In this document: in pieces, positions 8,781 to 20,087 of the stretch | Layout: every line of letters begins with the position of its first letter | Numbering within the stretch: position 1 is the stretch's first letter | IMG/VR virus record: IMGVR_UViG_3300006042_000055 | Location: 1-20,385 of that record | Source of the DNA: a virus | Direction: 5' to 3' (one strand) | DNA: 20,385 bases | Notes under the pieces: generated by a model | Database searches by the model: none | What the model was told of the DNA's origin: nothing | What the model saw: the letters and a program-made list of their open reading frames with translations, nothing else | Made by a program: the position numbers and the translations under genes

Positions 8781-9340
8781 TCCGCCACCTTCGGCGTCAG
8801 CGTGCGTTCGGGTGTCAGGTTGGTGAAGCAGGCGCGCATTTCATCATTGCGCCGGTTCGTGAGGCCAGTGACCACGACCTTGCCCGCCTTGTTCCACAGG
8901 GCGAACGCCTGGCACGCGGAATACCAGTCCCCGGCCTTGAACTGCCTGGCCATGGTCGAGCCGCAATAGCCCGCGACGCCGATATTGTAGGCGACGCTAA
9001 TCGCGGCGCCGAGCTGATAGACGCTGGCGGCAATCTGGGGCGTGCAGGCCAGGACGCCCTTGCCGAAATCACTGGTGATGGCCTTGCGCAGAAAGGCACG
9101 GCACTCGCCCAGCGTGTAGCGCTTCATCGTAACGCGGGTTTCACCGGTGCAGACGGTCCACTTGCCGACGATGTCCTTGTACGGGACCAGGGCCGGGCCG
9201 CCCGGCCCATTCTCCCATTTCTCGATCAGGCCCGTCGCGACCTGCTGGGCGGGATCGCTGACGACCATGCCGACCGGTGCGGCCACCAGCGCACTGGCAG
9301 CGACCAGGCCGATCGCGCTTTTGCCAGGTGCCTCAGCCAT
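8777..9340 (-). CDS. Phage endolysin, GH24 lysozyme with SAR-like N-terminus
   Basis: This 187-residue form (from ATG 9340) is a muramidase of the T4/P1 lysozyme type that cuts the peptidoglycan glycan chain. Numbered from this start, the catalytic Glu is E43 in IEKWE, followed by D56 (YKDIVG) and T62 (KWTVCTGET), matching the E-D-T triad. A 4-residue insertion (NGPGG) lies between E and D relative to P1 Lyz. The N-terminus has a weakly hydrophobic, Ala/Gly-rich segment (about 9-28, SAIGLVAASALVAAPVGMVV) without a clear cleavage site, typical of a signal-arrest-release anchor. Several cysteines (CTGE, ECR, ACT, GYC, SAC, RAC) fit the disulfide-regulated SAR endolysins. A TTG at 9403 would add 21 residues, but it lacks a ribosome site. 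The 103-base gap upstream may hold the promoter for the late genes. Confidence 0.88.
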   Translation of the reverse strand: MAEAPGKSAIGLVAASALVAAPVGMVVSDPAQQVATGLIEKWENGPGGPALVPYKDIVGKWTVCTGETRVTMKRYTLGECRAFLRKAITSDFGKGVLACTPQIAASVYQLGAAISVAYNIGVAGYCGSTMARQFKAGDWYSACQAFALWNKAGKVVVTGLTNRRNDEMRACFTNLTPERTLTPKVAE

Positions 9341-9443
9341 GGGCGGGAACCTGTTGACGGGCGGGGAGGTTTTGGGCTTTGTCCATGGCCTCTTGTCGGC
9401 CAAGGATAGCGCTCAACCCATGACCGCCAGCGCGGCCATGGCT

Positions 9444-9824
9444 TCAGAAAAACGAGAGTTGGCGGTCTGGCTCGCTACCCTTTTCGGGCGGGCCGTCCAT
9501 CCGGGCGAACAGGCTGTTGACGCCCGTTTCCGTCATGCCGAGCTTAGTGGCGATCTCGCCATTGCTATGCCCGGCGGCGCGATAATGGCGGGCGCGAAGC
9601 CCGCGAGCAAGGGGCACGCGCAGATAGTCGGGCGACTTGCGTTCGGACAGGCGCTCGGCGGCGACCAGGCCGACCGCCTTGGCGATCTCGCCGTCCGCGT
9701 CGATCTTACGGGGAACATAGAGGCGACGCCCACCGAAATTCTCGGCGAGCGCAATGAAGGCGCGCTCGCCGAGCAGGGCCACCAATTCGGCGACCAGATG
9801 TTCGGAGGTGACGCGCCGGCTCAT
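9444..9824 (-). CDS. Mor-like transcriptional activator
   Basis: A 126-residue protein with the Mor/C family pattern: VAELVALLGERAFIALAENFGGRRLYVPR in the N-terminal dimerisation part, IAKAVGLVAAERLSE, then a helix-turn-helix (about 90-112: HSNGEIATKLGMTETGVNSLF). Mor activates the middle promoter of Mu and turns on later gene expression; here it sits directly before the lysis and head genes, as expected. It starts at ATG 9824, overlapping the upstream stop as TGATG. Only one Mor/C-type gene is visible in the window, so this protein may combine the middle and late activator roles. Confidence 0.88.
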   Translation of the reverse strand: MSRRVTSEHLVAELVALLGERAFIALAENFGGRRLYVPRKIDADGEIAKAVGLVAAERLSERKSPDYLRVPLARGLRARHYRAAGHSNGEIATKLGMTETGVNSLFARMDGPPEKGSEPDRQLSFF

Positions 9825-11051: not shown

Positions 11052-11206
11052 CGGCCGGCTCCCAGGCCAAGCGCGAACGCCAGCCAGATCAGCACCGCCG
11101 CAGGCGAAACCCAGGCCCAGTTGATCACGTCGGCCGGATGGACAGGGTCACCGGTCACCGGATCGGTCAGCAGCGCCTTGCGCGCCTTCTCCAGCAGCCG
11201 GATCAT
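11048..11206 (-). CDS. Small membrane protein downstream of transposition gene B
   Basis: A 52-residue protein (MIRLLEKARKALLTDPVTGD...) with a basic amphipathic N-terminus and a C-terminal transmembrane helix (about 31-49). It overlaps the B stop as ATGA at 11206 and the start of the DnaA-like gene as ATGA at 11051. The gene is short and easily missed; both overlaps and codon usage like its neighbours support it. The topology (short N-terminal cytoplasmic part, one C-terminal helix) is like that of the small protein at 9982-9824. Function unknown. Confidence 0.68.
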   Translation of the reverse strand: MIRLLEKARKALLTDPVTGDPVHPADVINWAWVSPAAVLIWLAFALGLGAGR

Positions 11207-12192
11207 GCTGCCACCGGACGGCTGGCGCGCTGGGCAAAGGCCTCGGCGATATGCTTACCGGTCAGTTCTTCGCCCTTAGACCGGGCAATGGTGACCGCCA
11301 CTTCCAGGGTGAAGGTGCAATCACGCAGGCCGCCTGGCCGCGATGCGATATCCTTGAGAATGCCCACCGCCTTCTCATCATGAACGCCCCAGGCAGCCGC
11401 CTGCGCCTCGGCATCCTCGGGAAAAGCCTGGGCGATAACCATCGTCTGGCTGACGCGGCTGAACAGCTGGGCCAGATAGGGCGCAGTGCGGGACGTGCCT
11501 TCCATCTGAGAGGACACATGCTCATTGCCGACCAGCAGCACGCCGACCGTGATCTCGCGCTCATCCCACCAGCCGCGAATTTCCTCCAGCATGTCGATGT
11601 TAAGATGCTGCGCATCGTCGAAGATCAGCAGCGCATTCTTGAATTTCAGTTCCGACACGACCCAGCGCGACAGATCGTCGCTGGAACCGCGCGCGGCCTT
11701 GTTGCCCATGGCGATCAGCACGGCCTTGCAGAGCGCCGTGATCGTCTTCATCGACTTGCGGCAGCGGATGAAATAGGCGTTCGACGCGCGGTTGGTATAT
11801 TCGATCAGGCCTTCCGTCTTGCCCACGCCAGGCGTGCCGACCAGCACACCGACCCGGCCTCGCTGCGCCCAGGTGGCAAGGCTCATAGCCATCCGCGCCG
11901 CGCGGGTTTCGAAGAAGGGCGGGATTTCAGGCGCCTCGATCCGAAGCTCTTCCTGCGCCTTCAGCGTCTGACGGTAGCGATAGACCTCCTGCGCAATCTT
12001 CTCATTGCCGCGTTCAAACTTGGAATTGTTGTAGGTGCCGCCGCAAAAGGCCGACAGGGTCGACCCGGCGCGACCGATCGGATTTTCCAGGCGGGTCCAG
12101 CTGAAGCCGGTTTCGGCCTTGTGCGCGATCAGCCATTCGCGCTGGTCCAGAACGAAATCGGGGGTGGCTTCTATTTCGTTGATGTTGATCAT
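11203..12192 (-). CDS. Transposition protein B, AAA+ ATPase (Mu B-like)
   Basis: This 329-residue protein is the ATPase that binds target DNA, delivers it to the transposase and gives target immunity. The N-terminal part (about 15-75) looks like the helix-turn-helix region of MuB (WTRLENPIGRAGSTLSAF then GGTYNN). The ATPase domain has Walker A GTPGVGKT (119-126) and Walker B LLIFDDAQ (188-195), and a VLLVGNEHV strand with a downstream FSR arginine as sensor or finger candidate. Mu B has 312 residues, so the length fits. It begins 73 bases after the transposase stop; this gap holds two hairpins and an AGGA ribosome site 9 bases before the ATG. Confidence 0.95.
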   Translation of the reverse strand: MININEIEATPDFVLDQREWLIAHKAETGFSWTRLENPIGRAGSTLSAFCGGTYNNSKFERGNEKIAQEVYRYRQTLKAQEELRIEAPEIPPFFETRAARMAMSLATWAQRGRVGVLVGTPGVGKTEGLIEYTNRASNAYFIRCRKSMKTITALCKAVLIAMGNKAARGSSDDLSRWVVSELKFKNALLIFDDAQHLNIDMLEEIRGWWDEREITVGVLLVGNEHVSSQMEGTSRTAPYLAQLFSRVSQTMVIAQAFPEDAEAQAAAWGVHDEKAVGILKDIASRPGGLRDCTFTLEVAVTIARSKGEELTGKHIAEAFAQRASRPVAA

Positions 12193-12265: not shown

Positions 12266-14242
12266 TCACTCCACCACGCGCAGCTTGGAAACGGCCGCCA
12301 CGAACTGGTCGACCTGCTCATTTGCCACTGGTGTCTGAAGGGTCTTTGAAGCGGCTTTTAGAGCCGCGTTCCCCCGGTAGCGGGCGGGCCGAACGACGTT
12401 CGCCACCAGCTCGGGCGCGGGCTGCTCGACATAACGACGCTGGGCTTCCAGCTGCTGGGCGCCGAGCAGGTTTTCCTGATCGCGCAGGCGGCGCACCGTC
12501 TTGCGCATATCGCCCAGCGTCTTCTTCTGCTGCTTGGCATCCTCGACGCTGTCGAACTGCGATGCGCCAACGCGGTCGGCCGTGCAGATATAGTCGCCCG
12601 CCATCGAATAGACATGGAGCGGCAGGCTCAGATCATCGGGATCGAACCGGATCGTCAGCAGCTGGCCAGCATGGCGGCTGAGGTCCCGCGACCAGTAGCG
12701 ATTGCCCACGATCCTGACCGATCCGTCCTTGCGGTCGGCCTTCAGCTTTTCGCCGGTCAGCAGTGCGAGGCGCAGATGCTCGGGACTGGCCTTGCCGATC
12801 GGCGCGGTCTCGTAGCTCGCCTGGAAGGTCTGCTGATAGCTGGCGCCATTGGTGGTTTCGGTGCGGCGGCCTTCCCGTTCGTTATAGGCGGCCATGCCAT
12901 CGCGAACGACCTGGACGAACACGTCGAGCGGGACCGCCCTGGCGCCATAATTCTCGGGCTTGTTGTCGATATGGTTGCCGGTATAGGCGCCCGCGCAGCG
13001 GATATCCTTGGCGATGAAATCAGCCAGGGTACGGAACGACCGTTCAATCGGCTTGGACTGGCCGCTGTAAGGCTGGGCGAACTGGACGCCGATGCCGAGG
13101 CTGGGCAGCAGGCCGAGCGGATCATCCTCGCGGATGGTGAAGCGGAAGCGGTTGCGCACGCCGCCGGTCACCCATTTGGAGGCGAAGGCGCGGCCATTGT
13201 CCATCAGGCAGCGATTGGGAATCCCATAATCGCGGAACAGATCGGCGAAGGCCAACCGGGTCAGCAGCGCGCTTTCCGTCTCGCCGATCCGCCAGGCCAG
13301 CATCATGGAGCTGTAAACGTCCTGGATCGCGACCATCATCGGGCGGGCAATGATGTCCTTGCCGGCCGCATCCTTGCCGAAATTCACGAACACATCGAAC
13401 TTGTGGCCGTCGATGTTGACCATATCCATGGCGAACATGTGGGCTTTGCTACGCTGTTGCGGGGGAACCATATTGCGCACGGCGTCCATTCCTTTCCTCA
13501 TTGCGACGATGACACGGGGATCGACCTCACGCTGGAGCTTGCGAAGCAGCGTCTTCTCGTTGGGCATTTCGATGCCGCGTGGGGCCGCGTAATATTTGAC
13601 GGTGTTGAAGCAGCAGCTGCTGAAGGTCGGTCGCTCGGGGCGTAGATATTCAGACTTCAGATATTGCCAGGCGCCGTCATCGACTTCGCATTCCTTGCCA
13701 CCGCCCTTCCGGCGGGGAGCAAGTGCGGGGAGGTAATCGGCACGGCGAATGCCCTTCACCAGCTTGAGATAATTATAGATCGTGCCGACGCTGTCCCCGG
13801 CCGACTGGTGCGTGGCGCGGGCAGCGGCCGTGCGGTTCATGCCGGCCGCGATGAAACCTTCGAACATGTCCAGCACCGTTGCGCGGCGCTCGGCCTCCGC
13901 CTTCACCTTGTCCGTCTGCATCTCGTACCAGGCCCAACCCTGGGTCTGGCGCGCGATCGACACCGCATCTTCGTCATTGGCGGGCATCCAGGCGATGCCG
14001 CGACGGACCAGCTCGGCCTTGGCGGCATCCGGCAACAACGACAGGTGCCATTCCATGCCGCCGCCCCGGCCGGTGCCGCGCTTGCGCGCCAGCGACATGC
14101 CGTTGCCATCGACACGCAGCGCCCAATCCTCATCGGCGGCGCGCTCGTTGATCTTGCGCTTTGATTTCGGCAGGCCAGGCAATGCCAGTTGCTCCAGTTC
14201 CAGTGACGTGAACCAAGTTTTTCCACCCCCCAGTTCGATCAT
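12266..14242 (-). CDS. Transposase A (Mu A-like DDE recombinase)
   Basis: This 658-residue protein is the DDE transposase that cuts and joins the phage ends (Mu A: 663). In order: an N-terminal Mu-type winged-helix DNA-binding domain (about 8-80, with KSKRKINERAADEDW), a second helix-turn-helix region for end binding (about 115-240), the catalytic core, and a C-terminal barrel plus B-interacting tail (about 505-658). The triad is visible as D278 (NIDG), D348 (LMDNG) and E400 (SKPIERSF), each in the same local context as Mu A D269, D336 and E392. The motif GAYTGN after the Glu is also Mu-like. The ATG at 14242 overlaps the upstream stop as ATGA. Confidence 0.97.
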   Translation of the reverse strand: MIELGGGKTWFTSLELEQLALPGLPKSKRKINERAADEDWALRVDGNGMSLARKRGTGRGGGMEWHLSLLPDAAKAELVRRGIAWMPANDEDAVSIARQTQGWAWYEMQTDKVKAEAERRATVLDMFEGFIAAGMNRTAAARATHQSAGDSVGTIYNYLKLVKGIRRADYLPALAPRRKGGGKECEVDDGAWQYLKSEYLRPERPTFSSCCFNTVKYYAAPRGIEMPNEKTLLRKLQREVDPRVIVAMRKGMDAVRNMVPPQQRSKAHMFAMDMVNIDGHKFDVFVNFGKDAAGKDIIARPMMVAIQDVYSSMMLAWRIGETESALLTRLAFADLFRDYGIPNRCLMDNGRAFASKWVTGGVRNRFRFTIREDDPLGLLPSLGIGVQFAQPYSGQSKPIERSFRTLADFIAKDIRCAGAYTGNHIDNKPENYGARAVPLDVFVQVVRDGMAAYNEREGRRTETTNGASYQQTFQASYETAPIGKASPEHLRLALLTGEKLKADRKDGSVRIVGNRYWSRDLSRHAGQLLTIRFDPDDLSLPLHVYSMAGDYICTADRVGASQFDSVEDAKQQKKTLGDMRKTVRRLRDQENLLGAQQLEAQRRYVEQPAPELVANVVRPARYRGNAALKAASKTLQTPVANEQVDQFVAAVSKLRVVE

Positions 14243-14889: not shown

Positions 14890-15114
14890 TCAGTCCTTCA
14901 TCCACCAGAATTTGGGCGCCTGATCCTCAGACTGGATGGGCACTTCGCGCGCCATCAGGTCGGCAGTGCGCTCGGCGACCTCGGCCTGGGCGCGGTGCGC
15001 CAGGGCACGATTGCGGCGGCGCAGAGCCACGATCGTGCAGCCCAGCGCCATCGCCTGCTCAAGTTCGGTGCGGGCGCGGCGGAAGCGCTCGGCCTGGCTG
15101 GGAACCATCGTCAT
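14890..15114 (-). CDS. Hypothetical helical protein, 74 residues
   Basis: A 74-residue, strongly helical, basic protein: MTMVPSQAERFRRARTELEQ followed by a long Ala/Arg-rich stretch (about 20-55) that may form a coiled coil. It ends in KFWWMKD. The ATG at 15114 overlaps the previous stop as ATGA; the longer frame upstream would be antisense-like noise. I do not recognise it. The protein lies in the run of small early genes between the methyltransferase and transposase A. Confidence 0.65.
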   Translation of the reverse strand: MTMVPSQAERFRRARTELEQAMALGCTIVALRRRNRALAHRAQAEVAERTADLMAREVPIQSEDQAPKFWWMKD

Positions 15115-15371
15115 GCCGCTGCCCTCCCGTGCTTGCCGCCATAGGGATTGGGCGCCTTGTCCAGGATCAGATCGAAACCGCTGAATTGATGAGTACGGCT
15201 GACCGACAGGCGGCTGGTGATGGACAGGACTTCGCGAGTGAACTCGTCGTCGCGATCGGCGTTGGCGCGGATTGCATGCCAGGCATGCCACCCCGAACAG
15301 CCCAGGACGATGCCGATCGGCTTTTTCGGTGCCGCCAACATCGCAGCGACAATGTCGGACATGATCGTCAT
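15111..15371 (-). CDS. Hypothetical protein, 86 residues
   Basis: An 86-residue protein (MTIMSDIVAAMLAAPKKPIG...) that includes a CSGWHAWHAIRANADRD segment with paired Trp and His residues, and a Gly/Lys-rich tail. I do not recognise the family. ATGA overlaps join it to the 106-residue gene upstream (15371) and the 74-residue gene downstream (15114). The His and Cys residues could bind a metal, but no established motif is visible. Confidence 0.65.
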   Translation of the reverse strand: MTIMSDIVAAMLAAPKKPIGIVLGCSGWHAWHAIRANADRDDEFTREVLSITSRLSVSRTHQFSGFDLILDKAPNPYGGKHGRAAA

Positions 15372-15688
15372 GCCCGCACCCAGTCGATGCTGAGATTTTC
15401 GTCCAGATGCTCGCGGACATGCTCTTCCCAGTCGATCAAGGCATCGACGGCGTCGTCATGGCCGACCTCGATATGCGCCCGTGCCGGGTCGATCTCGGGG
15501 ACCCGCAAGCCAACCTGATCGCCGAAATCGTGCAGGACGGTCTGATCCCGGACCACACCCAACAGCCCGGCGATCGCGTCGGCGCCATGTGCGGTGCAGA
15601 CCATGATCGAGCCATCCGGCTCTTCGCGATGCGGCAGGAACTCGATCAGGCCACTGGCCCAAACGATCATGGTGCGAACGCTATTCAT
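15368..15688 (-). CDS. Hypothetical acidic protein, 106 residues
   Basis: A 106-residue acidic protein: MNSVRTMIVWASGLIEFLPH, then CTAHGADAIAGLLGVV, then a long acidic section with HIEVGHDDAVDALIDWEEHVRE. It is coupled by ATGA overlap to the methyltransferase gene upstream (15688). It does not resemble a known family that I can name. High acidity in a small phage early protein is often seen in DNA mimics or anti-restriction proteins, but there is nothing specific here. Confidence 0.68.
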   Translation of the reverse strand: MNSVRTMIVWASGLIEFLPHREEPDGSIMVCTAHGADAIAGLLGVVRDQTVLHDFGDQVGLRVPEIDPARAHIEVGHDDAVDALIDWEEHVREHLDENLSIDWVRA

Positions 15689-16389
15689 GCGGCCATCTCC
15701 AGTTGAGCACGCACGCCGACGCGACGCAGATCGAAGTCACGGTCGATCTTCTTCTGCTCGGCGGTGCGGGGCGGAATGATGCGGGTGATGGTGTCGGTAG
15801 CGGGCTGGCGCGTGTCCCAGACATACCAGGCATAGTCGGTCTTCCCGCGCTTCCAGGCGGTCAGCTTGCCGGTTTTGGGATCGCGACGCGCGAGCGCATC
15901 GCCGGGCGGCATCGAGGGCCGATCGCAGAACTCCAGGATAAAGCGCGGCGGGTATTCCCGAGCGAACAGCGGATAGCGCTTTTCGCTGGCGCGCCAGCGG
16001 ATTGGCAGCAGCGCGCAGACCAGGCCGTCAGCAAGCATCAGGGCACGGCGAACGCAGCGCTCGGCGATGTCCGGCTTATAGCCATAGGGCGGGTTGAACA
16101 CGATGTTCAGCCGCCCCATCCGCTCCATCAGGTGGACCTGCTGGCCAAGGAAATCATGCTCGCCCATGAACAGCCGGCGCGGATCGTTCGACCAACGATC
16201 GACCAGATCGGTGCCGACAGCATTGAACCCCGCGACAGAGAAGGCAGTTGGGATGGTGCCCAGCCCGCAGCACGGGTCCCAGATTGTCGCGTGAGGATCG
16301 AAATCGACCATCTTCATCAGCGCGCGGACGGTCCATGTCTGTTCGACATACCAGTCTTGCGGGTGGCGATCAGGGCTGTCGGGCGTCAT
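15685..16389 (-). CDS. Orphan DNA N6-adenine methyltransferase-like protein
   Basis: A 234-residue protein with the SAM-dependent N6-adenine methyltransferase motifs in order: motif I DPCCGLG (38-44), the acidic residue D61 at the end of the next strand, and motif IV NPPY (99-102). It has no separate target-recognition domain of typical size, and no endonuclease gene is beside it, so it is likely an orphan enzyme for phage DNA modification or anti-restriction. This is comparable in purpose to Mu's Mom but unrelated to it. It overlaps the upstream zinc-binding protein gene (ATGA at 16389). The target sequence cannot be read from the protein. Confidence 0.85.
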   Translation of the reverse strand: MTPDSPDRHPQDWYVEQTWTVRALMKMVDFDPHATIWDPCCGLGTIPTAFSVAGFNAVGTDLVDRWSNDPRRLFMGEHDFLGQQVHLMERMGRLNIVFNPPYGYKPDIAERCVRRALMLADGLVCALLPIRWRASEKRYPLFAREYPPRFILEFCDRPSMPPGDALARRDPKTGKLTAWKRGKTDYAWYVWDTRQPATDTITRIIPPRTAEQKKIDRDFDLRRVGVRAQLEMAA

Positions 16390-16742
16390 GCCTGCTCTCC
16401 ATCCCGCATGCGGAAGCGGAAGGAGGCGTCGGCGCCGCCCTTGATATAGCCGGATGCATAGCGCGGCACGGCATGGGCCGGCACCGATTGCTTGCTCAGA
16501 TAATCCCAGCAGGCCTGATAGGCTTCCTGGTACTCGCGGTTGATGCGCAGTTGATCATCCAACTTGGTCCGCCCCTTGCGAGCGTCCATCGCCGCGCGCC
16601 AGGTGGCCCACAGATCGTCGCGCAGCTTTTTCGGCAGGGACCGATAATGGCCCAGGCAGAAGATGTGGCCGGTGCCGACAATCTCGCCGCAACCCTCGGC
16701 CGCGCAGCGGACATCATGCTTGCTGAAGGAACGGCGGATCAT
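16386..16742 (-). CDS. Hypothetical protein with Cys-rich zinc-finger-like N-terminus
   Basis: A 118-residue protein with a Cys/His cluster at the N-terminus (CAAEGCGEIVGTGHIFCLGH, residues 12-31; C-x4-C then C-x2-H), suggesting a zinc-binding knuckle. A helical, basic middle section follows (LPKKLRDDLWATWRAAMDARKG), and the C-terminus ends RFRMRDGEQA. I do not recognise the family. The ATG at 16742 overlaps the stop of the upstream gene (ATGA), so I preferred it to a longer frame from 16784. The neighbouring methyltransferase suggests an early DNA-related role. Confidence 0.75.
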   Translation of the reverse strand: MIRRSFSKHDVRCAAEGCGEIVGTGHIFCLGHYRSLPKKLRDDLWATWRAAMDARKGRTKLDDQLRINREYQEAYQACWDYLSKQSVPAHAVPRYASGYIKGGADASFRFRMRDGEQA

Positions 16743-17482
16743 GCGCGCTTCCCCATGAAGATTTCGAAGACCAAGCGGCCCCACTGGATCACCAGCACGC
16801 GGCCATCGAACTCGTCGTCATTAAGATCGAGGCCGACCGTCATGCTCGGCAGGATACCGATGCACGGGAGCCAGCTGGGCCAGCGGCGGCACGGCGCCTC
16901 TCGGTCGCAGTTGGTGAACCTGCTATCGTCGATCGACTCGATTGCGGGGGATGCAGATGTCGCTGACGAATTACGTGTATTGGTCTCGCTCAATCGTAGC
17001 TGAATTGATGGAACTGCTGACGGATGAAGACCGTGTTCGGGTGCAAGCGATAGTCGAGGAGAATAGTCAGAGCCGCGCGTGGCAGGACGTTCGCCGACAG
17101 GACATTGACGCGGCTGTCCGCTTTCTGTCTGAGACACCGGCGAAACGATCTGCACGATGGCAGAAGCTGCATCCCGACGAACGCCTTGTTTTGTGGCTTC
17201 GTGCGCGTTCTCTGGGGCTTCAATCAGCCAATGCAATAGCCCTTGCAGAGCGCGTCGCGGATATCGAGGGGATGGGATATCGCGATGCGCTTCGAGATAC
17301 CGCTCGATATGTTCTTCAATTCGACTTGCTCCCTCAACCAGAAGAGTTGTGGGGTTCAGCGCCCGGTGAAGAGCACTGACCAGGAAGCCGGGTCGGTACA
17401 GGGGGGCAAGGCTGCTGAGCGCAAGGCGGCGATTAAGCCGCGCTTTCGCCGCAGTCGGATTTTCGAAACCGACGCGCTTCAT
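16739..17482 (-). pseudogene. Early gene apparently interrupted by a plus-strand insertion
   Basis: One open frame of 247 codons runs through, joined by ATGA overlaps to the ParB-like gene (17482) and the next gene (16742). Only the two ends look coding: residues 1-34 ([20 protein letters not shown]...) and the last 55-60 (from about REAPCRRWPSW, then TVGLDLNDDEFDGRVLVIQW). The middle is exactly antisense to a plus-strand ORF, and its third codon positions correspond to that ORF's second positions, which are poor in GC, quite unlike neighbouring genes. I infer an ancestral protein of about 90-95 residues split by about 450 bases of foreign DNA. The fortuitous open frame could still give a 247-residue fusion. 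Which reading is right cannot be proved here. Confidence 0.45.
16957..17379 (+). CDS. Opposite-strand accessory gene (candidate moron), unknown function
   Basis: A 140-residue protein on the plus strand within an otherwise minus-strand early operon. It is mostly helical and has no recognised domain (MSLTNYVYWSRSIVAELMEL; then AWQDVRRQDIDAAVRFLSET; then KLHPDERLVLWLRARSLGL). In its first 42 codons about 62% of third positions are G or C, clearly below the neighbouring phage genes, while the second positions look like those of a true gene. ATG 16957 has a GGGGG ribosome-site-like run 6 bases upstream; an upstream TTG (16942) and ATG (16951) are possible. Position and base use suggest a lysogenic-conversion gene. 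No convincing promoter or terminator was found. Confidence 0.6.
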   Translation: MSLTNYVYWSRSIVAELMELLTDEDRVRVQAIVEENSQSRAWQDVRRQDIDAAVRFLSETPAKRSARWQKLHPDERLVLWLRARSLGLQSANAIALAERVADIEGMGYRDALRDTARYVLQFDLLPQPEELWGSAPGEEH

Positions 17483-18756
17483 GCGTCACCGCCCTTGCCG
17501 GCCAGGCCGATCTTCTTGGCCAGCTGGCGGCGTTCCTCGGCCTTGTTCGGCGCGACCATGGGATAGTCGACAGGCAGCTGCCATTTCGCCAGATAGGCCT
17601 CGGCCGTCAGTTGGTGATGCGTCGACAGGTGGCGCTTGAGCATGGTCAGCTTCTCGCCGCATTCCAGGCAGGCGATATGATCCGGCTTCACTGACGCGCG
17701 GATCGCTACGGCCGGGACCGGCTTTTCCTCGACGGGAGCAGGAGCAGGCGCGCGCGGCGCATCCAGCCCCTCTTCCGCGATCCGCGCGTCCAGTGCCGCC
17801 CGCATCGCCAGCAAGGCGCTGGGCTTCAGCGTCTTCACGATCTCGGGTGCGATCCGCGCCTGGTCGCCGGCCGACAGGCGGTCGAGGTTCGACGTGGCGT
17901 TGTTCATATACTTGGTCGCGCCGGTCGGGGTCGCACTCGCCTTGGGCGTCGACAGGCCCAGCCCGTCCATCGCTTCGGCAAGCGTCATGTCGGGCGTTGC
18001 AACGAGGCTTTCGATCAGCGCCTTGCGATCGCTAAGATCGCCAATCTCGGCAATCGCGCGCAGCGCGGAGGCGTTTTCGCCCACAGTCGGGTGCGTCGCT
18101 AGGCCGCGCCAGAGGTTCGGAAATGGCACGATCAGGGCGCGATGGAGGGCGAGGTCGTCGCGGATCGTCCGCTTCGACAAGCCCACTGCTTCGGCGGTGC
18201 TTTCCTGCCACCCATATACGGTGGCAAAGCTTGCCGCCGTATGATCGGCTTCTACATCGTTCAACGTTTCGTCACGTTCGACGCCCGCCGCCTTCGCCTT
18301 CACCGCATCCCAGCGCGCGCGGATAGCAATCTGCTCTGGCGACAGGTCGCCATGCTGTTCCTTGAGACGCGCTTCGGCGGCGTCCGCGATGGCGCGCACG
18401 AAGCTTGACCGCTCCAAAGGGCTGCGCGATGGCCGGGCCGCATTTTCCATCGCCTCGATCTGAAGCGCGTCGGCGCCGGCCTCGACTGCGATCGCATCGA
18501 TCAAGGTCAATCCGACCATGCGCGCGCCTTCCAGCCGGTGATGGCCCGCGATCAGGGTCCACGGCGCAGCAGCGCGCGGGCCACTGGCACGCACGATAAT
18601 CGGCACGATCTGCCCATCTTCTGCCATGAGCTGGCCCAGCGCCTGGGCTTTGTCGGGATGGAAGGCGCCCAGACGGTCGCCAATCAGGATTTCGTTCGGG
18701 GATAGCGCCATCACGGCGCCAGCCGTTTCCACGACGGACTTTGGTGCGGTGGCCAT
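17479..18756 (-). CDS. ParB-like nuclease-domain protein fused to a Ros/MucR zinc finger
   Basis: A 425-residue protein with two recognisable parts. The N-terminal part (about 10-110) is a ParB/Srx-type domain, with the core [18 protein letters not shown] and a following [14 protein letters not shown] segment. The middle (about 110-330) is helical with an HTH-like KRTIRDD region. The C-terminal part (about 355-420) is a Ros/MucR zinc finger, C363-x2-C366-x9-H376 with H380/H381, followed by [20 protein letters not shown] and AKKIGLAG, the classical Ros tail. Such proteins may control early transcription or segregate or protect DNA. The start ATG at 18756 has GGAGG 10 bases upstream, 2 bases after the Ner-like stop. 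Confidence 0.88.
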
Positions 18757-18758
18757 GT

Positions 18759-19028
18759 TTATCGGGCCTCCGCATTTTGACGGTGCGCTTCCGCAGTTTC
18801 GGAATTATGGTCCAACATTATGGACTCATCGACCAACATTCCATCGCGCTTGGCCCGGACCATTTCCGCTCGGACCAGCTTGGCAACGGGGCCGTTTGGA
18901 CGGCCGCGAAGCCAGTCCACTACCGCTTGGTATTTGACGCCCTTCTTGGCGGCGAACTTCCGCACGCTGCCGTGCCGCTTCCGCAAAGCGGCTTTTATGT
19001 CCTCCCGCTGGGGAGATTGAACAAGCAT
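18759..19028 (-). CDS. Ner-like DNA-binding regulator
   Basis: An 89-residue protein with the helix-turn-helix pattern of the Mu Ner family: [34 protein letters not shown]. In Mu, Ner lowers early transcription and represses the c gene. The open frame runs upstream to 19079, but the early promoter -10 lies at 19064-19069, so starts there would not be transcribed. The ATG at 19028 has GAGG at 8-base spacing and overlaps the repressor ATG in a CATG; ATG 19046 lacks a ribosome site. The C-terminal tail (about 60-89) contains an operator-like palindrome in its DNA (18810-18825). Confidence 0.82.
18810..18840. promoter_or_regulatory. Candidate repressor operator near the end of the Ner-like gene
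   Basis: GTCCAACATTATGGAC (18810-18825) has the same 16-base layout as the operator at 19050-19065, GTCCA-N6-TGGAC. A second copy of the half-site, GACCAACATT, starts 21 bases later (18831-18840), two helical turns away. It could control transcription of the ParB-like gene or bind repressor co-operatively with the operators at 19049-19087. Confidence 0.45.
18974..18996 (+). terminator. Terminator-like hairpin upstream of the repressor start
   Basis: GCCGCTT (18974-18980) and AAGCGGC (18986-18992) form a perfect 7-base stem with a 5-base loop, followed by TTTT (18993-18996) on the plus strand. It lies 31 bases before the repressor ATG and inside the Ner-like coding sequence. It could end plus-strand transcripts before the repressor, or act as an attenuator; chance in coding DNA cannot be excluded. 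Confidence 0.4.
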
Positions 19029-19734
19029 GTCTAAAGCCTCGGTCATTGGGTCCAACAAATTGGACCATAAAGATGACATCTTGGACCGTCAAGCTCCCGC
19101 TGCGTTTGGAGAGCGACTGCGCTCGCGCGCAGCCGAAATTGGCATTGGAATGGCCGAAATCGGCCGTTCTTCAGGCGTAAAAAAGCAATCGATGTCGGGT
19201 TATTGGAACGGCGAACGCCTGTGTGGGTCCGACAAATTGTTCGCATTGTCCGATACATTGCGCGTCAACGCGCGATGGTTGATATCTGGTGAAGGGCCGA
19301 AGAGCGGGGGCGACCTAATTGCGGTCGAGGATGCCGATTGGGAGCAGGTCCCGTTCTTCGACCTGCGCAACATAACTGACACTGGTAAGGGTGAGCCGCT
19401 ATCCTGGACGCCGTTCCGGAAGGATTGGCTCAATCGAGCGCTTGGAACATCCTTCGATCTGTATTTAGTGCGCCTACTGTCCGACTACCGCAGCAGAAAC
19501 GGCGACCGTGACCTTTATGAAGATGACATCGTCTTCGTACGAGAAATCACGCCGGGCGAGCTTCAGGATGGACATGTGGTAATTTGGAGGCGCGACCAGT
19601 CTCTGAAGGTGGCACGCTTCGCCTTGAGCCGCCGCGATCGCGATGAGGACGACGTGATTTATCCCGAGGAAGTCAGCGATGATCAATTCGTACCGGTTTG
19701 CCGAATTTACGGCAGATACATACAGCGAATGTGA
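19027..19734 (+). CDS. Phage repressor, XRE helix-turn-helix with S24-like C-terminus
   Basis: A 235-residue lysogeny repressor. The N-terminal XRE domain spans about 27-80 (FGERLRSRAAEIGIGMAEIG, then SGVKKQSMSGYWNGERL). The C-terminal half (about 105-232) has the LexA/S24 fold pattern, with S152 near the position of the catalytic Ser. The Lys position is occupied by A196 (LKVARF where LexA has TVKRL), so self-cleavage is doubtful. The ATG at 19027 has GGGGAG 11 bases upstream; an alternative TTG at 19081 would exclude the operators from the gene but has no ribosome site. It is divergent from the Ner-like gene and convergent with the lipoprotein gene, 1 base apart. Confidence 0.88.
   Translation: MSKASVIGSNKLDHKDDILDRQAPAAFGERLRSRAAEIGIGMAEIGRSSGVKKQSMSGYWNGERLCGSDKLFALSDTLRVNARWLISGEGPKSGGDLIAVEDADWEQVPFFDLRNITDTGKGEPLSWTPFRKDWLNRALGTSFDLYLVRLLSDYRSRNGDRDLYEDDIVFVREITPGELQDGHVVIWRRDQSLKVARFALSRRDRDEDDVIYPEEVSDDQFVPVCRIYGRYIQRM
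19049..19087. promoter_or_regulatory. Repressor operators overlapping the early promoter
   Basis: GGTCCAACAAATTGGACC (19049-19066) is a perfect palindrome with 7-base arms. A further half-site TTGGACC (19081-19087) lies exactly 21 bases from the TTGGACC at 19060-19066. The palindrome overlaps the -10 element and the half-site lies in the spacer and next to the -35 element of the early promoter, so a bound repressor would block it. The sites are inside the 5' part of the repressor ORF. Confidence 0.7.
19064..19092 (-). promoter_or_regulatory. Early promoter (Pe) reading left into Ner and the early genes
   Basis: On the minus strand the -35 element TTGACG (19087-19092) and the -10 element TATGGT (19064-19069) are separated by 17 bases, the optimal spacing. 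Transcription would start near 19055-19058 and read the Ner-like gene, whose ATG is at 19028 with its GAGG site in between. This is the best sigma-70-type promoter seen in the window. Confidence 0.7.
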
Positions 19735-19735
19735 A

Positions 19736-19984
19736 TTAATATGACGCTGACAAGCAATTGATGTCAGAGCGCAATTTCCATTCTTTGTACTTCTCTTCCT
19801 GTCGATCCTCAAGGTAGGCTTCGGCTACAGCTTTACCTTGCGCACAAAGTTCGCGATCGCGTTCTTTGCCGGGGAACCTAGCAGTCTGGCGATCAACGAT
19901 ATCGTACTTTTCCTCTTCCTTCGCTCCAGCGCTGGAGCAGCCGGCGGCGAGCAGGCTCAAGGAAAGGATCACGATGCTGCGCAT
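19736..19984 (-). CDS. Small lipoprotein, possible lysogenic-conversion gene
   Basis: An 82-residue lipoprotein precursor with a typical signal peptide (MRSIVILSLSLLAAGC) and lipobox LAAGC, giving Cys16 as the lipidated residue. The mature part is charged (EEEKYDIVDRQ, then ELCAQGKAVAEAYLEDRQEEKYKEW) and contains two further Cys residues (in ELCAQ and DINCLS) that could pair. The ATG at 19984 has AGGAG 8 bases upstream; the longer open frame starts before a sensible signal peptide. Between repressor and presumed phage end, it may be a lysogen-expressed surface or exclusion protein. A host origin is not excluded. Confidence 0.75.
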   Translation of the reverse strand: MRSIVILSLSLLAAGCSSAGAKEEEKYDIVDRQTARFPGKERDRELCAQGKAVAEAYLEDRQEEKYKEWKLRSDINCLSASY

Positions 19985-20020
19985 GGAAAGCACTCCTACG
20001 ATTCGCGTCATCCTATCGCG

Positions 20021-20034
20021 ACAAAAGTAAAACA
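20021..20034. other. Tentative phage left terminus
   Basis: Mu-type ends begin 5'-TGT reading inward. On the minus strand the sequence TGTTTTACTTTTGTCGCG begins at 20034 and carries two direct copies of CTTTTGT offset by 11 bases (ACAAAAG on the plus strand). It lies between the last phage-like gene and the host-like promoter, where an end is expected. No second end is available for comparison, so this is only a candidate. Confidence 0.2.
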
Positions 20035-20087
20035 AAAGCGTCCCATTGTCGGACCGCGCGGGCGCCATGTTCCAGTTTGACTATTAT

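Follow-up and report, generated by a model that had tools for sequence, protein, structure and literature searches.

The locus considered here raises the question of why an open reading frame on one strand should lie entirely inside an open reading frame on the other, in the middle of a coupled early operon, and whether only one or both of these frames are used. The window, i.e. the whole stretch of DNA analysed (20,385 nucleotides), corresponds to a 20.4 kb virus record in IMG/VR and belongs to a Mu-like phage whose hosts are sphingomonad bacteria. A preliminary description had interpreted the plus-strand frame as a foreign moron that split a single early gene of about 95 residues. The layout it gave was confirmed: a 247-codon minus-strand frame at 16739-17482 shares an ATGA with either neighbour and contains the plus-strand frame, and ATGA overlaps, including those at both ends of this frame, join the minus-strand early genes from the ParB-like gene through position 15111. 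The features are listed below.

11203-12192: MuB-like ATPase.
12266-14242: Mu-type transposase, MuA (Pfam DDE_2, 1e-41).
16386-16742, minus strand: small conserved early gene, the downstream neighbour, with its start shared as ATGA.
16739-17482, minus strand: early-direction frame of 247 codons, ATGA-coupled on both sides, with the plus-strand gene nested antisense in it.
16739-16906, minus strand: small conserved phage unit, judged from the frames of relatives, fused in frame to the 247-codon frame.
16908-17431: approximate extent of the cassette, at either side of which homology to cassette-less relatives ends (boundaries accurate to about 20-30 bp).
16921-16929, plus strand: extended -10-like TGCTATCGT, a candidate promoter from alignment of the 5' flanks.
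16946-16951, plus strand: GGGGGA, the candidate ribosome-binding site of the plus-strand gene, from its sequence.
16957-17379, plus strand: gene for an all-helical protein of 140 aa and no known family, based on homologues, codon-position substitutions and AlphaFold.
17285-17431, minus strand: stretch at the N-terminus of the early-direction protein, conserved (APLYRPGF...RALNPTTLLVE...IERYLEAH), which lies partly beyond the plus stop and partly over the last ~35 plus codons.
17479-18756, minus strand: ParB-like protein with a ROS/MUCR domain, the upstream neighbour (Pfam PF05443, 8e-31; PHROG ParB-like, 5e-23).
18759-19079: Ner-like gene.
19027-19734, plus strand: repressor-like gene, opposite to the early genes (minus).

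Related phages and prophages were fetched via the neighbouring methyltransferase. Most of them carry a ParB of about 333 aa without the ROS part, and the full-length ROS/MUCR zinc-finger fusion was found only in L016/L029/L038. The interval from the ParB-like gene to the methyltransferase (15100-17480 in the window, and its equivalents in L010-L018 and L027) forms an exchange zone, in which small ATGA-coupled genes vary from phage to phage.

The plus-strand gene is a real gene under selection. Its frame is beyond chance, as indicated by its three phage and three plasmid homologues and by the substitutions between the window and the closest homologue, L002 (84% identity), which fall at plus codon positions 1, 2 and 3 as 16, 11 and 50. 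The other two phage homologues come from a phage of Sphingobium faniae (L017, identical to L028, the copy carried by strain CGMCC 1.7749; 43% identity) and from a prophage of a Sphingomonadaceae genome (L048, identical to L051; 36%). The more distant homologues on alphaproteobacterial plasmids (L003-L005, from Leisingera, Bosea and Rhizobium) show 33-38% identity over the aligned part and share the start residue in the alignment; the best start is the ATG at 16957, with an alternative at 16951. The possibility, raised in the preliminary description, that the frame has no homologue is thereby removed. The structure prediction suggested there was run on four sequences with AlphaFold and gave an all-helical model (pLDDT 79, pTM 0.74). 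As had been claimed, the protein has no recognised family: searches of Pfam, NCBIfam, PHROGs, PADLOC and PDB sequences gave no convincing one, and a Foldseek comparison of the model with PDB and BFVD gave no match at E < 1. A PADLOC match to an orphan methyltransferase (E 5e-4, 17 bits, 2 of 6 members) was set aside because it covered only one end of a long PADLOC model. A scan of genome contigs with the protein returned no matches, and the neighbourhoods of the plasmid homologues held nothing informative.

The lower third-position GC (GC3) that had been reported for the gene was reproduced (0.53, versus 0.77-0.80 in the MuA, MuB, ParB-like and methyltransferase genes). The repressor (0.61) and the Ner-like gene (0.65) are also lowish, so a foreign origin is unproven from composition alone. 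Adjoining the repressor-like gene is a lipoprotein-like frame at 19736-20068, both sharing the lower GC3 (0.58-0.61); this frame may be a second accessory gene.

The view that the plus-strand gene is an accessory cargo gene placed opposite the early operon held up well. It is absent from nine related phages in which the site can be read (L010, L011, L012, L013, L014, L016, L018, L027 and L035, where L018 and L035 are contigs starting inside the region), and profile searches matched 2 genomes each among the 398 sampled for the family and the 398 for the order, and 1 among 94 for the genus to which S. faniae belongs. Its position is variable, with three places observed: after the ParB-like gene (window and L002), in the interval between a zn-type gene and the methyltransferase (L017), and after MuB (L048/L051). 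At every one it lies on the repressor's strand, and the N-terminal segment of the minus frame and the plus gene were found only together, so that the two are exchanged as one. The cassette of L002 occupies about 0.6 kb in place of about 155 bp, and L027 spans the equivalent site with one uninterrupted 152-codon frame.

At the other end of the minus frame, the sequence is again homologous to the nearest relative from 16907 on. The final ~55 codons of the frame match a 50-aa frame in L012 and a 50-aa ATGA-coupled frame in L002, as well as the ends of longer frames in L016, L027 and L010, whose lengths are 101 to 189 aa; judging from these matches, they are a small phage gene distinct from the cassette. 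The shared unit, of about 45 residues and ending in ...DFDGR.LV..WGRF.FEIFLG, stands alone in some phages and forms the C-terminus of unrelated longer frames in others (16739-16906 in the window; L012, 3034-3186; L016, 4664-4969; L027, 6484-6942; L010, 4388-4957).

We then consider the openness of the antisense frame. In all four phages it keeps one fixed register without stops, and start/stop overlaps with early genes are present at its two ends. The window and L002 both have ATGA/ATGA, L017 has GTGA/GTGA and L051 has GTGA/TAATG. The number of antisense stops in the coupling register is 0, 0, 0 and 0 for the phages versus 4, 5 and 3 for the plasmid homologues. When the codons of each phage gene were shuffled synonymously within that gene, 2.4, 2.0, 2.8 and 1.35 antisense stops were expected, with probabilities of zero stops of 0.037, 0.085, 0.014 and 0.213; the joint probability is about 1e-4 as a product in which the window, L017 and L051 are taken as independent. 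The antisense protein gave no match when searched against phages and plasmids.

Conservation at the protein level was found mainly at the N-terminus of the minus frame. Just past the plus stop, the minus-strand motif AP(L/V)YRP(G/A)(F/L) occurs in all four phages, as LAPLYRPGF, VAPLYRPGF, MAPVYRPAF and TAPPLYRPAL. In its eight codons, counted by eye over the four sequences, all third positions vary, together with only two first positions and one second position, a pattern characteristic of a protein encoded on the minus strand. Between the window and L002, the changes in 17380-17420 fall at minus positions 1, 2 and 3 as 5, 2 and 10. Inside the overlap, with the plus proteins held fixed, minus-frame similarity over plus codons 105-141 exceeded codon shuffles in every pair (z 4.3 to 5.5). 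When the entire gene was scored, the coupling register ranked highest of five alternative frames in 5 of 5 distant pairs, and the plasmid pairs gave no excess minus-frame similarity in that register. Third-position differences also drop in plus codons 105-141, being for example 11/32 between the window and L017 versus 66/104 elsewhere. The scores of the other frames are raised there too, so the signal may partly reflect conservation at the DNA level, and control windows in ParB sometimes reach z >= 4 in the same test. A simulation of the window-to-L002 substitutions supported minus-protein constraint within the final quarter of the plus gene only (p 0.013-0.021) and gave no support for it over the whole overlap (p 0.33-0.39), with a probability of 0.08-0.10 for stop avoidance; dual protein coding along the entire overlap is therefore not supported by the simulation. 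There are only four cassette-bearing phages and two of them are close in the plus gene, so the selection tests are not independent.

Given that the constraint is confined to the last quarter and that other frames and controls are also raised, we limit our claim to a selected N-terminal segment of about 50 residues followed by an unconstrained open tail. The predicted minus protein, although mostly of low confidence (pLDDT 54), agrees with this, being helical with moderate confidence in residues 21-80 and mostly disordered past about residue 118. The earlier remark that the minus frame looks coding in no more than its first 34 and last 55-60 codons was nearly right, except that the coding signal extends about 35 codons into the overlap. 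Conservation of the full 247-residue protein, which would speak against the insertion account, is clear for the first ~50 residues and absent further on.

Upstream of the plus gene, each of the four phages has CTGCTA at a fixed spacing from the ATG, inside a stretch resembling TGCTATCGT, and the GCTA of this element is exactly 35 nt 5' of the ATG in each. A full sigma-70 consensus promoter was sought for the gene and not found, so the extended -10 remains a candidate promoter only. A purine-rich stretch is present at about the place of GGGGGA in the other three phages. A terminator scan of the gene gave one weak terminator-like site only, within the gene.

The explanation we favour, as probable though well short of certain, is a mobile accessory two-strand cassette, in which a coupled early gene contains, in antisense orientation, a gene read in the lysogen direction. 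Mu-like phages of sphingomonads would carry it as an accessory unit of about 0.5 kb. On the repressor strand it would encode a helical protein of 135-140 aa, whose gene has a ribosome-binding site and probably also a promoter of its own, so that the protein can be made in the lysogen; the transcript would begin close to the conserved TGCTATCG. Read along the early strand, this DNA would form an open frame translationally coupled to early genes on both sides; the first ~50 residues would be a selected segment, and the unconstrained but stop-free tail would pass ribosomes to the next coupled gene. Because the antisense gene is real and the enclosing frame is open and chained in relatives, the stretch appears to be usefully read both ways. 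During lytic growth, early transcription and translation crossing the cassette should silence the plus gene, and in the lysogen it should be on; a mutual shut-off of the two directions may be expected. Its likeliest job, by analogy with phage Fc02 (below), would be to exclude superinfecting phages or to serve the lysogen in some similar way, where exclusion in particular is a guess that we rate at clearly less than even. Tentatively, and with more doubt than belief, selection may have kept the antisense strand of this transferable cassette open and coupled, which would allow lysogen cargo to be inserted without polarity at many sites in a translationally coupled lytic operon, the opposed proteins, one lytic and one lysogenic, forming a matched pair.

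Several other explanations have to be weighed. The strongest rival, which still convinces us far less than the cassette, treats the minus frame as a pure translational bridge, from which stops were removed to keep coupling and early transcription while the minus protein itself is irrelevant. The frame is indeed stop-free and coupled in 4 of 4 phages, most of the overlap is without protein constraint and the tail is predicted to be disordered, but a bridge needs none of the third-position pattern seen in the eight codons past the plus stop. Somewhat less probable is the account of the preliminary description, a simple moron that split one early gene of about 95 residues and left the two minus ends as its remnants. 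The accessory nature and lower GC3 of the plus gene are in its favour, and so is the uninterrupted frame of L027 over the L002-type site. However, no relative joins the 13-letter N-terminal peptide of the minus frame to REAPCRRWPSW, so the search for an uninterrupted gene yielded a frame across the site in L027 without joining the window's two ends. In addition, four phages share the supposed N-terminal remnant at three unrelated sites, each time beside the plus gene, and the supposed C-terminal remnant is the small conserved unit that has a start and a 50-aa frame of its own in L012 and L002.

The remaining two readings allow only one gene in the overlap. If the plus gene were the sole gene, the open antisense frame could be a by-product of GC-rich codon usage; long antisense frames are common in GC-rich DNA, and the phage codon usage gives a probability of zero stops of 0.08-0.38 per gene. 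We regard this as unlikely, as the register is identical in four phages with start/stop overlaps at two ends, the flank past the plus stop is conserved and 3 of 3 plasmid homologues have stops. The converse, with the minus frame as sole gene and the plus frame as its shadow, can appeal to a minus frame that is coupled and open across 247 codons. It is ruled out as minus-only coding by the substitution classes at plus codon positions, and both the confident helical model and the plasmid homologues, which align from the identical start codon yet have antisense stops, leave it with next to no probability.

When compared with known systems, the cassette finds what appears to be its closest precedent, with the same layout, in gene 10/olg1 of Fc02. 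In this Pseudomonas transposable phage, olg1 and olg2 are transcribed in the lysogen antisense over early gene 10, and Olg1 and Gp10 each exclude superinfecting phages when expressed (PMC9936078). Both cases concern transposable phages (the window has MuA and MuB) in which an antisense gene on the repressor's strand lies over a gene of the early operon. They differ in that the Fc02 pair comes directly after ner, whereas that of the window is the third early gene and those of L017 and L048 lie elsewhere; the cassette has a single 140-aa gene entirely nested antisense; and expression and exclusion were demonstrated for Fc02, whereas both are predictions for the cassette. A comparison of the cassette with the early region of phage B3, a relative of Fc02, and with the phage collection gave no significant similarity. 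With a similar layout and homology not found, we propose that the cassette works like the Fc02 pair and do not class it as a member. In B3 (L056), B3ORF16 at 9192-9683 follows an HTH (Ner-like) gene, as gene 10 does in Fc02. It ends in a low-complexity Pro/Ser/Arg-rich tail opposite an unannotated forward frame of about 75 aa (MTTPDHLVLDASMRSAF...), much as the tail of the minus protein lies opposite the plus gene; this forward frame is possibly the counterpart of olg1.

The cassette also resembles phage morons, as a single accessory gene that is absent from close relatives, has lower GC3, lies opposite to the operon and has a candidate promoter of its own. It differs from them in that no terminator was found, and its antisense frame is coupled into the operon with a conserved N-terminus. 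Long antisense overlapping genes of bacteria are known, for example pop, antisense to ompA (PMC7103648; reviewed in PMC7457138). Full antisense embedding and a selection signal on the second frame are common to both, but the phage pair is mobile and its surrounding frame, whose translation is predicted, is locked in a coupled operon. Both frames of the pair are intact in divergent relatives, and the signal of selection on both frames of the overlap is found in plus codons 105-141 only.

Antisense-nested genes are seldom annotated and rarely backed by evolutionary support. Here, one short stretch provides independent evidence for each strand and occurs at several operon positions, by which a claim usually argued from single genomes becomes testable. 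Combined with the Fc02 case, this suggests that an antisense position within the early operon may be used repeatedly by transposable phages for lysogen-service genes, which gene callers would miss there.
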